From the NCBI RefSeq assembly GCF_000003815.2, contig NC_049985.1, forward strand, positions 12,512,980 to 12,576,979: 64,000 bases of DNA, given 5' to 3'. This DNA comes from Branchiostoma floridae. Lineage: Eukaryota > Chordata > Leptocardii > Amphioxiformes > Branchiostomatidae. The notes under the pieces were generated by a model. It saw only the letters and a program-made list of their open reading frames with translations. It did no database searches and was not told where the DNA came from. Both the position numbers and the translations under genes were made by a program. How positions within the stretch are numbered: the first letter of the stretch is position 1; each line of letters starts with the position of its first letter. Shown here one piece after another: positions 21,401 to 45,400 of this stretch.

Positions 21401-24400
21401 TGTTGGCACTTACAGGGTTCAGCTGGTGCTGCTCTAACTCCCTATACACCTGCAGGGAGAGATAAACATAGGGCATAGATACAGTAACTCCCTATGCACC
21501 TGTAGGGAGATACAAACACAGGACTTAGATACAGTAACTCCCTATACACTTGTAGGGAGATACAAACACAGGACTTAGATACAGTAACTCCCTATGCACC
21601 TGCAGGGAAATACAGACACAGGACATAGATACAGTAACTCCCTATACACCTGCAGGGAGAGATGAACACAGGACCTAGATACAGTAACTCTCAAGCTATA
21701 CACCTGTAGGAACATACAAACAAAGGACCTACATGTAGATATGTGACAGTGGCATCATGTGGCGCAATCGGTAAGGGTTCAAAACTGCCAACGTTGTGCC
21801 CTTGGGAAAGGCACTTTAAACATGTCAATCTTTCCTCACTTCACTCAGGTGAAAATGAGACTAGGACTGAATGTGTATTGAAATTTGCCACTTACCTTTT
21901 TTGGATTTTTACAGAAGTCACAGCCTTTCTCACACTTAGGTTTGCTGTCACCAAAGAATGTCGCTATCATTCCATGACGACACCTGGGAGTTGTGAGAGA
22001 GGCATAAGTTATGACACTCCAAACTGGTCAAAGTGAGTCTTGAGGTTTCCTGCTTAGAAACTTAAAGTATACTTCTTTTATATCTTCATACTTCATACCC
22101 TTCCTTGATCCTTTAATCTTCAATAAATCATGGTCCTTTCATGATGAGTGGTGCTACCACATTCTCATTTAATGTCAAGTCAGGGTTCGAAATACACATG
22201 TAATTTTTGAGATTTGCACGTAAAAATATTCTGAACTTGCAATCTTGCATGTTAAAAATACCTGGCCTATAGTAAAAAATACTGAGGCCCTGTGCCTTTG
22301 CCAGGGATCGTCACCAGTCGTCAGTAGGTGTTACAAATAATCAAATTGGGCTTTGCTGCAAACTTACATGCTGATTATGTGGATATCATTCCAAAATTTC
22401 AAGTTTTGTCTGCATTTTCATGTGCCGATTTCTGTCCGCCAAAAGTGACAGAATGAGCAAAATTCTTATTTGTCCTGAGCAGCAAAATTCCGCCAAAGGA
22501 CGGAATTATTGAAGCTGGCTAAATCATTGTAGTATAGACAAGATGTATTTTGCATGTAGATTTTTCGAATTGCATGTAAGATTTTTGCCAACTTGCAATT
22601 TTGCATGTAGCAAAAAAAACGTATTTCGATCCCTGCAAGTACAGGGAAGGCTGTTTCTAGAGTCCTCAAAAAGAGACGTCTATGTAAATGTTCCTATTGA
22701 CAACTCAGTTCAAATTTCCTTCTTTCAAATTTCCTTGTCTTCCAGGTTATTTTGACTTTGATGTCTATGGTTGATACAACTGAAAAAAAAGCCAAGTTGA
22801 CGTAACGTAGTGTGCTATCACAGGTACTATGTATACTAGTATATATATAGCATGGATGTCAAATTGTCAAAATATGTAATGTTGTCATAGCTCCACAATG
22901 GCACTTGTAAGTCCATCCCTCTTACAGTGTTACACTCAATTCCTGAGAGGAATGCAGTTGGCTCTTACTGAATGGTGTTTGTGGATGTACACTTTGAAGT
23001 AGAGAAAACAGCATGTGACCTTCACATTAAATCCAAATACAGCAGTCATGGCACAAATGGAAAATCAATATGGAAAGGTGGCATATCTATCCATTGTGCC
23101 CATGAACCAATGAAATGCCCCTTTCTACTGAGGAATCCAAAACTATCAAGGAGACAACAAGAGTGGGAACCTTTGACAAGGCAGGGAAATGACTGAGAGT
23201 TTCTTATCTGGGAACAATACAAAATCCTTCAATTGTTTGAGTCTGGAACTTTTCCAAAATATTTAGACTATATTTGTTTCCAGCTTACAAAGAATTTATC
23301 CTCATAAATTCTCCAAGTAACCAACAGATTAATAATTTCTCAAATGATAACAAAATTGTTTAAATTTTTAACTTAAAATAACCAAGGAGGTTGAAAAATT
23401 CCTTTTTTCAACCTCCTTGAAATAACTTAGGTTTCTGAAAAAAAGTGTCACTTGAATTATCTGGGCTCTTTTGTACAGGTAAGTAAGACTTAATTTATTC
23501 ATATCATCAAGCTACTAGTACTTATTTATTTATCATATCAAGTTATCTATTTATCATATCAAATTACAGAGCTACTGTAACATTAATTTTCCTGTTGTCT
23601 AAAATGTCATAAACTTTGCCAACCTTTCTACTTTGCTGAATTCAATATTTTCAATTGCACACACCAAACTGCTAAATACTAGCTGTCTAGAATTTCATTT
23701 ATTACCTGGCTGTGGCTAAGTACATGTACCTACAACAGAAAAATTATGACATACACAAGCCTTTCTTTTGTAATGACTATCAATATTTGATGAGTTGGGA
23801 CTATAGGGGTTGACGCCCTCAAGGCCAAACAATGGGGTAATCTAATTTGCATATCAAGCCGACACCCATAACCCAGGTGATAAGGGGTGTGGCCTTTGCC
23901 TTGTTCAGCTTTATAATTCATCCACTACGCTCCCTTTGTGTACTGTCACGATCTATTCACCACGGACCAGGGTGTGTACTGTCTCCATGGTAACAGGTAA
24001 ATGAGTTCCATGCTGTACAGCAGTGTGACGTCACACCTGGGGGCTTGGGCTTGTCGCACAGGTGAATTAGGACAGGTGAGCTGCAGGATGTTTGTAAGAG
24101 TGCCGGCTGTGCCTCAGGTAAGTTTACTGTTGTTGTAGATACTGTTCTAAGATCTCTTTCTTGAGAAAGCTGCTTATACTTAATCTGTAATCTAGTGATC
24201 ACTTGTGGTTATCTGATCTGGGAAGTTATACTGGTCTGGGGATTAAAACCACAGCTTTCTCTTTGTCTTGCATGCAGACTGTAATCGTGTATATCAGTAT
24301 AAACAGTACAACTCAATGAATAGAACTTCCTTGGTTTGAGACCCGGTCATGCCTCAAATTTCAGAGACTACAAGACAGTACTCAAGACCTCTTTCTGGAC

Positions 24401-42400: not shown

Positions 42401-45400
42401 CCTGCACACACAGACACACATTTAAGCTTTGAATATTACTTACTTGGGCTCCTCACAGTACTTGACAAGGGTTTCAAAGCTGGCCATTGCAGACTTGGCA
42501 TTAGGACCCATCACTCCTTTGGGTCCATTGGCCTACAGATATAGTAAAAACAGGTATACAGTTCTATTCAATGCCTTCAGCTATTTTAGACAGTAATGCA
42601 TGTACATGTACATGTAAGTTTTGAATTGAAGTTCAGGAACTATTCAACTATTAAAATCTGATGCATCAGTATAGACTTATCGTATCGAACCTTGTTCGGC
42701 CTGGAGATGTCCTGTTTAATGAGGAAGCAGACCTGGTCCCTCTCATGTCTGGAGTAGTACAGTCTACAGAAGGCCTGTTTCCCGTCCCTGCCTGCTCGCC
42801 CAGACTCCTGGTAGTACCCTGCCATGGACTTTGGGATGTTCCAGTGGGCAACAAACCTGGGGGAAATGTTTATCATTGAATTATATGATTCTTCTCAGAA
42901 TATTTGAGCATACAGTCAAATAAAGATAATTTTCTGTATTACACAGGATTCTTAGTTGTATCACACAGACTTCCATCGCTTAAAAATAAGGCACCTCATG
43001 CCCGCCATTGCAAGCAAACAGAGTTTTGTTCAAATTTTTTTCGAATTGATGTTCTTAAAGATTAAAGTTGTTGGCGCAGGTGGAAACAATGTATTAAATT
43101 TTACCCCTTTTTATGATTAGTTTGGCAAAGAAATCAGTGTTTTCTGACCTGGGTATGACATAAATAAAATACAACACGGTGTATTCCGCATCACTTTCCG
43201 TCCTAGCCCTGCTGCAGGTTGGATCTTTTTTTAGATAAAGTCTTTGTACATGTACCTTACAGTTGCCTTGTCCACTCCCATGCCAAAACTGATGGTAGCG
43301 ACGATGACAGGAACCTTGCCCTCCATCCAGTCCATCTGTACCTCCTCCCTGGTACTGTCCTTCAGCCCGGCGTGGTAAGCCTTGGACAGGAGACCCTTCT
43401 TAGTCAGTCTGGCCGCTACCTCTGTACAGCCGTCCCTGGTACGGCAGTACACGATTCCGCACCCCTTGTGTGGCTACAGTTGGATGTAATGGGCTTACGT
43501 TATAGAATGGATTCATAGACACGATCTTCCAACAGTAATTTTATGACATAGTATCATGTCAGTGAATGCTATCTACCTTCCCATTAGTGACAACCTACTA
43601 TAGTAGCTAATACTGTAAATGCAGAAACTTTCGCGGTGGTTTAATGTTCGCGGTTTTCGCAACGGCCACTTCACCGCGAATTTAAAACCACGGCGAACAT
43701 TTTACCATAACAGTAAGAGACTACAGTGCATGGTGCTACCGCGAAATTAAAACCACCTCAAAAAGTCCATTTTCCCGCTACTGCAAAATCAAATCTCCGC
43801 GAACTTAAATGCATTTACAGTACATTGCTGAAGCCTTATGAGTACAATAGTCAGTTAGCATTGAGGGGTAATATACTACAAGAAGGCAAAGCAGATAAAT
43901 CTTAAATAAAAAAAAAAGGTCCTGTCAAACTGTATGGACAACTTTGCATACAGTACAGTCCAAATTTTCAGTTAGCTGGAAAGTTTTGATAGTAAATCAT
44001 CATAACTCACTCCCTTGACCGGTTCCACTCCTTCTTCTCCCAGAGCTTTCACAGCAAAGTCTTTCAAATCTTCATAAGGGTCATCCAACACTTCCTTATA
44101 CTTCACATCATAGAACAAGTTTGGCCTGAACACACTAGTCTTGAACTTCTGTACAGGCTCCTGCAGATGTAAGCTGTTTATGATGTCCTTCTGTACAGCT
44201 GAAGTGGCCGTGGCTGTGAGAGCGATACAGGGGATGTCTTCTAGCTTCTCCCTCAGGCTGCCCAGTTTCAGGTAGTCCGGGCGGAAATCGTGGCCCCACT
44301 GAGACACACAGTGAGCTTCGTCCACCGCTAGATGAGCCAGCAACTTCCTGGACTTGAGGGTTTCCAGGAGCTGTTGAAACCCCGGTGTAGCGGCCAGTTC
44401 AGGGGTGATGTACAGGAGTTTGGTCTTGGGTTTGGAGCTGCGGAGGTCGGCGAGGACTCTCTTGCGATCCTTTGCGCTCAGTTTGGAGTTGAGAGACTCT
44501 GCACAGATGTTCAGCTTGCGTAGGTGTTCTAACTGGTCCTGAAACAAGGCAATGTTGTAAGCTGGTGAGTACAACTTCATGCCATAATCATTCTACCTGT
44601 ACCAATAGGGCTTATTAGTTATGTTTTACTACAAATTGATGCAGAGGATGAAATACCAGAGATGGCACCTCCAGTTAGAATAGCAACAGTAAATTATTTG
44701 TTGCACAGTCTTTCTTTTCATAGTTCTCTTCTTTTCTTTACTGTATGAAGCAGATGTAGCAGTTTGGAGTACTTTTTGCACAGCACATCAATAGATTATA
44801 TACATGAATTATTATAAGTAACTGTATGGCTTAAGCTTATTTTTGTAGATCTCTTTGGTCATAGTTATACACCGTATGACTATGACTATTGGTCATTTAG
44901 TGGGTGTTTCTAGTGTGCTATTTAAAAGGCACACAAAATGAGAAAGAATCCAAAGGATGCTGAAGCCAGACATCTACTTGAAAATTATTATGAACTTGCA
45001 AAGTTACCAATCAGAACTGAGACCACAGGTACCTGCATGAGTGCTATGAGAGGAGACACGACCATGGTGATGCCAGGAGCCATGACGGCTGGCAGCTGGT
45101 AACACAGGGACTTCCCCGCTCCTGTCGGCATGGAGATGTACACATCCTTCCTCCCGCTACAGGTACGGGCTAAACAAACAAACAAACAACAAAACATGGA
45201 GATGTACACATCCTTCCTCCCACTACAGGTGCGAGCTAAACAAACAAACCAACAACAAAACATGGAGATGTACACATCCTTCCTCCCACTACAGGTGCGA
45301 GCTAAACAAACAAACAACAAAACATGGAGATGTACACATCCTTCCTCCCACTACAGGTGCGAGCTAAACAAACAAACAAACAACAAAACATGGAGATGTA

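Follow-up and report, generated by a model that had tools for sequence, protein, structure and literature searches.

A large RECQL5 intron holds three opposite-strand reading frames

The window analysed here is a 64,000-nucleotide stretch of the lancelet Branchiostoma floridae (NC_049985.1, positions 12,512,980 to 12,576,979 of the forward strand), and our main subject is a large intron of the helicase gene RECQL5. The gene runs on the minus strand, and the intron carries on its plus strand three open reading frames (ORFs) that begin with ATG and encode 208, 56 and 115 amino acids (aa), referred to below as ORF1, ORF2 and ORF3; ORF3 is the candidate relative of the vertebrate small membrane proteins SMIM5 and SMIM6. 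The host gene is identified by a minus-strand ORF at 43972-44592, which matches human RECQL5 at 4e-71 with other RecQ helicases far behind, and by a match to the SRI domain, in the C-terminal part of RECQL5, at 5811-6278 (E 6.2e-6, above the cut-off).

A first-pass annotation, made from the letters alone, had placed a large intron in RECQL5. This intron is real: its donor (CCCAA/GTAAGT at 42443) and acceptor (CTCCCAG/GTGTCG ending at 21984) were read directly, and the joined flanking exons match human RECQL5 at 6e-13 to 9e-13 in an ungapped alignment that spans the junction and covers residues 392-437 of the 991-aa chain. Query residue 12 equals human residue 392 in this alignment, so query residue 30 equals residue 410. 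Human RECQL5 is described as having isoforms of 410 (alpha), 435 (gamma) and 991 (beta) residues (PMC7947261), and another source gives the Zn-binding domain as absent from RECQL5-alpha and -gamma (PMC7262407). From the junction at codon 410 and the 410-aa length of human RECQL5-alpha we infer the same intron in human, and the lancelet host intron is probably the human RECQL5 intron at the same codon. An Rfam scan of the host intron gave 0 matches. A 100-base run of N lies within it at 24738-24837.

Human SMIM5 and SMIM6 presumably lie within that RECQL5 intron, antisense to the host. ORF3, antisense in the lancelet intron, is in the location expected for SMIM5 orthology, and the 410-aa length of RECQL5-alpha makes the same location plausible on the human side. 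SAP30BP, which the first-pass annotation had named as a neighbour, is probable from a single HCNGP match under the curated cut-off (Table 1); the exon is on the opposite strand from RECQL5 and lies past its 5′ side. Of the SMIM5/SMIM6 position that had been proposed for the three ORFs, the antisense nesting in RECQL5 holds, SAP30BP and the shared intron are probable, and only ORF3 fits SMIM5/18/22, weakly in sequence. In published association work, RECQL5 and SMIM5 are named within one associated region in cattle (PMC6385435), and RECQL5, SMIM5, SMIM6 and SAP30BP are expression quantitative trait locus genes of one single-nucleotide polymorphism in a human association study (PMC7449091). A literature search, covering titles and abstract openings among the matches listed and little subscription content, returned nothing on a lancelet SMIM5 or RECQL5 nest.

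The lengths of the three ORFs and the single hydrophobic stretch in each, as first described, are confirmed by the ORF list and by Kyte-Doolittle hydrophobicity, which over 19 residues peaks at 2.81 in ORF1, 3.12 in ORF2 and 2.95 in ORF3 (ranks 6, 2 and 3 when the window's 177 ATG ORFs that reach 45 aa or more are compared). Codon choice was scored on synonymous codons only, after training on 777 codons from RECQL5 stop-to-stop frames and exon pieces, nucleoside transporter frames and a 328-aa frame without a Pfam match. By total score, 2 of 139 other ORFs equal or exceed ORF1 or ORF3, and 10 of 139 do so for ORF2; when the score is taken per codon, the counts are 10 of 139 for ORF1, 2 for ORF3 and 4 for ORF2, which an earlier codon score had placed below zero. 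The score is imperfect: an ORF with leucine-rich-repeat and immunoglobulin domain matches (the LRR-Ig ORF, Table 1) and the SAP30BP exon both fall below zero, and the highest value among the other ORFs belongs to a frame that looks like a retroelement by eye. In a genome search, neither ORF1 nor ORF3 had a high-identity match other than itself. ORF1 and ORF3 are likely genes, and we infer from the sequence that the intron ORFs would be expressed. Non-coding first exons had been suggested for all three. An in-frame stop does lie between a plausible acceptor and the ATG in each case, and the acceptors are consensus-based candidates.

ORF3 and its possible paralogue compared with the SMIM5/18/22 family

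ORF3 is made up of an Ala/Thr-rich N-terminus, encoded by 12-bp repeats, followed by a juxtamembrane segment, a helix, a Cys cluster and a basic tail. A Cys cluster directly after the helix and then a basic tail, read from the human sequences as a feature of SMIM5_18_22, is thus present in ORF3. AlphaFold2 on the single ORF3 sequence predicts a helix at residues 48-85, with a low mean predicted local distance difference test (pLDDT) value of 63.6. Within 30 residues at or after the span ORF3 has 11 Cys, the highest count among 2350 six-frame ORFs in 124 kb. The second-highest count (9) belongs to a possible paralogue at C3:16829365, which a genome search with ORF3 had found (Table 1). The two give a pair p of 0.0015; pair p compares an alignment with region shuffles, and each value is for a single pair among many tried. 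The paralogy is no more than suggestive. Nucleoside transporter exons lie near the paralogue, and the third genome place of ORF3 (E 0.76) is a frame of CV/CA repeats. A search of ORF3 against the PDB gave nothing notable (best E 0.87), and a Pfam lead to MUCL1 (3.9) was put down to composition. The candidate acceptor of the ORF3 exon was read by eye; an automatic acceptor scan omitted it and gave a CAG ending at 39494 and a TAG further upstream.

The human SMIM5, SMIM6, SMIM18 and SMIM22 sequences used in all comparisons were working versions rather than database entries. Against the Pfam family SMIM5_18_22 (PF15831, curated cut-off 29.3 bits), SMIM5, SMIM18 and SMIM22 score 84-93 bits, and SMIM6 scores 28.2 bits (E 2.5e-6), just below the cut-off. 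On these scores SMIM6 looks like a remote relation of SMIM5, and a single progenitor would be enough for both. When ORF3 and the paralogue were aligned together and compared with the four SMIMs, hhalign gave a probability of 96 and an E of 2.8e-9 over 32 ungapped columns, which take in the juxtamembrane segment and continue to the end of the match in the helix. The tail of a UDP-glucuronosyltransferase, as a natural control, reached 13.6 and 15.1 bits and 72%; ORF3 and the paralogue reached 22.7-28.0 bits and 94%. Profiles recovered the left-out family member in each case (p 0.0002 each for SMIM5, SMIM18 and SMIM22; 0.0006 for SMIM6), and in a scan of the 2350 ORFs with the SMIM profile and composition correction off, the paralogue (cut at the locus border) came first and ORF3 second. 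By pair p, ORF3 reaches 0.0145 with SMIM18, and the paralogue reaches 0.003 with SMIM6, 0.12 with SMIM22, 0.27 with SMIM5 and 0.60 with SMIM18; hmmsearch profiles of three and four human SMIMs gave the paralogue p 0.083 and 0.019.

Searched against Pfam with its whole 85 aa, the paralogue places PF15831 second (15.4 bits, E 0.025) after FtsX (0.024), and its 51-aa core places SMIM5_18_22 first (18.4 bits, E 0.003), both below the cut-off. Among 40 region shuffles of this core, one met PF15831 at E up to 10 and none did better than 0.003; another family was reached at 0.0038, among the 25 of 58 families listed.

ORF3 shares with vertebrate SMIM5 an antisense position within RECQL5, one helix, a Cys cluster and a basic C-tail with GRK. 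It differs in its long repeat-encoded Ala/Thr-rich N-terminus, its larger number of Cys, the lack of a Pfam match and a pair p of 0.16. With SMIM22/CASIMO1 it has in common a juxtamembrane segment and helix that align ungapped, a Cys run after the helix and DN near the C-end, whereas SMIM22 is at another locus, has a reported function with squalene epoxidase and gives a pair p of 0.27. SMIM6/endoregulin likewise lies in RECQL5 and is a distant PF15831 relative, but it has no Cys cluster, its tail is reported to be luminal (PMC10058886), and no intron ORF specifically resembles it.

ORF1 and ORF2

The first-pass annotation had read the three ORFs as related membrane micropeptides. A single family was rejected on pair tests, profile tests and hhalign: ORF1 shows no similarity to SMIM5/6/18/22 (hhalign probability 7%, profile p 0.51 and 0.18, no pair test below 0.05) and scarcely counts as a micropeptide with its 208 aa, and ORF2 is marginal. 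For ORF2, hhalign gives 22%, the profiles give p 0.11 and 0.09, and pair p is 0.02 with SMIM22 and 0.01 with ORF3, among many pairs tried; with composition correction on, it comes second in the 2350-ORF scan. The SMIM5/SMIM6 profile search that had been proposed for all three yields a weak match for ORF3 (composition-controlled p about 0.04), none for ORF1 and a marginal one for ORF2.

The ORF1 reading frame is stop-free across 218 codons. Its predicted structure has a helix that spans residues 4-42, where the pLDDT averaged by block exceeds 90 in 11-30, and a tail that is mostly below pLDDT 57 apart from one more predicted helix at 133-150; these low values suggest a mostly disordered tail. 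The tail carries four LC8-like triplets (TQT 126-128, VQT 152-154, TQT 171-173 and TQS 182-184). In their contexts (REKGTQT, AGVQT, TERTQT and PGTQS) they resemble the motifs of multi-site clients of the dynein light chain LC8 (DYNLL), and they differ in that only one of the four fits the strict pattern, [^P].[KR].TQT. The putatively disordered tail has this one strict [KR].TQT match. In shuffled tails the strict pattern has p 0.017, two TQT have p 0.016, and four [TV]Q[TS] have p 0.0005, the class having been picked after the tail was seen. We take the C-terminal TTQL to be a PDZ class I pattern. The ORF1 exon would hold four upstream ORFs. On these features, ORF1 may be a separate membrane anchor, perhaps lancelet-specific, with a cytosolic tail that would bind LC8 at several motifs.

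The existence of ORF2 as a gene is doubtful. An upstream ORF with a good start context begins 17 bases ahead of the ORF2 ATG and overlaps it (Table 1), and ORF2 may be either no gene or a gene restrained by this upstream ORF. Its Pfam leads, DUF4519 (E 0.0074, only with the upstream extension) and EphA2_TM (0.1), were put down to composition.

Origin and possible function of ORF3

Descent of ORF3 from a SMIM5/6 progenitor is, at about even odds, the likeliest single account of ORF3, because its location, strand and layout all point the same way as its weak sequence signal; the sequence is not enough to establish this, and ORF3 is not assigned to the Pfam family. Most likely, ORF3 represents a single SMIM5/6 progenitor as old as the chordates, its neighbours in the intron are specific to the lineage, and ORF3 is plausibly the lancelet counterpart of SMIM5. 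Like SMIM5/6/18/22, it would be a small protein that crosses the membrane once, and the progenitor from which it probably descends would have given vertebrate SMIM5 and SMIM6 in the same place. The layout suggests that its Ala/Thr-rich N-terminus is extracellular or luminal, with conserved positions on the juxtamembrane part and on a face of the helix, and that the Cys cluster is cytosolic, probably S-acylated, and followed by the basic tail. ORF3 may then dock by its helix to a larger membrane enzyme or transporter and regulate or adapt it, by analogy with two vertebrate proteins: an interaction of SMIM22 with squalene epoxidase has been described (PMC12190854), and endoregulin is reported to regulate the calcium pump SERCA, its residues 1-25 being cytosolic and its residues 49-62 luminal (PMC10058886). 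For ORF3, the basic and Cys-rich C-tail suggests a cytosolic C-terminus, the reverse of what is reported for endoregulin, and with this orientation a helix adaptor that is acylated and resembles SMIM5/22 is to be expected rather than a SERCA regulin. The whole account, in which ORF3 derives from a SMIM5/6 progenitor and acts as a helix-docking regulator, ORF1 is a separate LC8-binding anchor and ORF2 may be no gene, is in our judgement equally likely to be right or wrong. The narrower historical claim, that a SMIM5/6/18/22 microprotein gene has lain antisense in the same RECQL5 intron (codon 410) since before lancelets and vertebrates split, with SMIM5 and SMIM6 as tandem copies, is possible, a little short of an even bet. 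Retention since the chordate ancestor, which the first-pass annotation had suggested for the whole nest, is plausible for ORF3.

Several results weigh against descent of ORF3 from a SMIM5/6 progenitor. ORF3 matches no Pfam SMIM model, full-length or trimmed. Genome-wide, PF15831 meets 6 places, none above the cut-off, none in the window and ORF3 not among them; five of the six, read on both strands, are short or AT-rich frames with no SMIM layout, and 1 of 14 control genomes (Bacillus subtilis) also matched below the cut-off. When the paralogue is taken with its whole surrounding open frame of 138 aa, PF15831 is not matched. The pair p of ORF3 is 0.16 with SMIM5 itself, 0.27 with SMIM22 and 0.40 with SMIM6, and hmmsearch profiles of three and four human SMIMs give it p 0.064 and 0.077. 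With membrane composition controlled by shuffling columns within regions, 5 of 150 shuffles reach the hhalign score (p ~0.04), and with the HMMER composition correction on, ORF3 ranks 1966 and 2205, and the paralogue 145 and 5, of 2350. The reverse search from the paralogue finds itself, a stop-broken frame (0.0107), the UDP-glucuronosyltransferase tail (0.0752) and ORF3 only fourth (E 0.193); that tail, whose enzyme matches UDPGT at 7e-29, resembles the paralogue slightly better than ORF3 does (shuffle p 0.0003). By eye, no sign of SMIM18 or SMIM22 synteny was seen in the 60 kb around the paralogue. More generally, hydrophobic ORFs are common in the window (44 of 177 reach 1.6 and 17 of 177 reach 2.0; the most hydrophobic, 30302-30538 on the minus strand, is an AT-rich frame in the same intron), and a membrane span alone therefore proves nothing. 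The marginal outcome of the composition-controlled tests and the pair p with SMIM5 suit an alternative in which chance brought two genuine lancelet genes, ORF3 and ORF1, into a long RECQL5 intron and the SMIM5 likeness of ORF3 is a convergence on membrane span plus Cys. The resemblance of the glucuronosyltransferase tail to the paralogue fits this too, and RECQL5 does accept guests, as the clearly unrelated LRR-Ig ORF illustrates. Such independent nesting would, however, have to produce by coincidence the intron that we consider the same as in human, the same strand relation, and a layout with a 32-column ungapped match to exactly the family expected there; we regard it as a credible competitor, though less likely than not.

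It is unlikely that the ORFs are mostly chance or non-coding frames of a long intron. The frequency of hydrophobic ORFs would suit this explanation, as would the shortness of ORF2, its inhibitory-looking overlapping upstream ORF and its weaker codon support; against it stand the stop-free frame of ORF1, the high-confidence helix predicted at its residues 11-30, and the exon-like codon choice of ORF1 and ORF3 in the total score. A nest of three SERCA-type micropeptides that includes an amphioxus endoregulin is very improbable indeed, even though position and small size agree with it, human SMIM6 is a distant SMIM5_18_22 relative, and the paralogue beats its shuffles against human SMIM6. The pair p against SMIM6 is 0.06 for ORF1, 0.88 for ORF2 and 0.40 for ORF3, on which ORF1 and ORF2 were rejected as endoregulin; the hhalign probabilities of ORF1 and ORF2 to the family are low, and the topology expected of ORF3 is opposite to that reported for endoregulin (PMC10058886). 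The link to endoregulin and SERCA drawn in the first-pass annotation has no support.

Should a gene of this family have stayed in the intron since before the split of lancelets and vertebrates, this place, where human RECQL5 makes its alpha form, would be one in which a helicase and an opposite-strand microprotein have long been in conflict or been regulated together. Microproteins are usually hard to trace past vertebrates, being short and fast-changing, and a conserved host intron offers a second, independent handle on orthology, by which the origin of the SMIM5/6 (endoregulin) family could be placed in the chordate ancestor. A further question is whether the antisense transcript of the guest gene affects the switch between short (410-aa) and long RECQL5.

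Feature coordinates and other observations

Table 1. Features of the RECQL5 locus and the possible ORF3 paralogue, with window positions unless a contig is named
Feature	Position	Strand	Basis
RECQL5 exon directly downstream of the large intron	21895..21983	-	splice sites and human alignment
Large RECQL5 intron, phase 2, at the codon equal to human residue 410	21984..42443	-	donor and acceptor read, human alignment over the junction
RECQL5 exon directly upstream of the large intron, ..LVKYCEEPK, start of the Zn-binding domain	42444..42532	-	splice sites and human alignment
Candidate 3′ splice site for the ORF1 exon, TCTTACAG	28234..28241	+	consensus only
ORF1, 208 aa, N-terminal membrane helix then a tail of ~165 aa, ends TTQL	28654..29280	+	ORF list, predicted structure, codon bias
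Candidate 3′ splice site for the ORF2 exon, TTTTTTTCCACAG	34972..34984	+	consensus
Upstream ORF MARLLLWPD, good start context, overlaps the ORF2 start	35014..35043	+	sequence reading
ORF2, 56 aa, with its membrane span close to the N-terminus; doubtful gene	35031..35201	+	ORF list, hydrophobicity, codon score
Candidate 3′ splice site for the ORF3 exon, TTCCTTTAAG	39474..39483	+	read by eye
ORF3, 115 aa, SMIM5/18/22-like candidate, ends LDNV	39524..39871	+	layout, codon bias, profile comparison
Possible ORF3 paralogue, 85 aa, single exon, membrane span and Cys	C3:16829365-16829619		genome search with ORF3 (40% identity, E 0.0104)
LRR-Ig ORF, 1337 aa, single exon, within the RECQL5 region	15304-19317	+	domain matches
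Probable SAP30BP exon (HCNGP domain)	54651..54758	+	E 4.8e-4, 21.1 bits (curated cut-off 26.3)

The LRR-Ig ORF is a further guest gene on the strand opposite to RECQL5, with codon use unlike that of the RECQL5 exons. Within the host intron, a GC-rich patch at 25481-26074 holds overlapping ORFs on both strands (119 aa on the minus strand, 101 aa on the plus strand) with an exon-like codon score; the two frames tried gave no Pfam match, and the patch is perhaps a repeat. Immediately after the SAP30BP exon, an open frame at 55161-56123 on the plus strand resembles by eye the end of a retroelement reverse transcriptase, and it has no Pfam match at 0.01.

RECQL5 itself contains two tandem arrays on its minus strand. 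The first, at 45129-45933, is a 66/58-bp minisatellite of about 13 copies; a pattern search located 12 of them, with a possible 3′ splice site, ACCTGTAG/YGGGAGGAAG, in each. These copies also contain the opening bases of the Walker-A exon (which codes for GRKDVYISM), and the last copy continues into the real exon: the splice acceptor of the Walker-A exon is multiplied in tandem. The second acceptor array, at 21435-21728, has a 50-bp unit in 5.8 copies and carries an acceptor and exon start like CTCCCTGCAG/GTGTATAGGGAGTTA; of the six sites listed, 5 have AG and 1 has AA.

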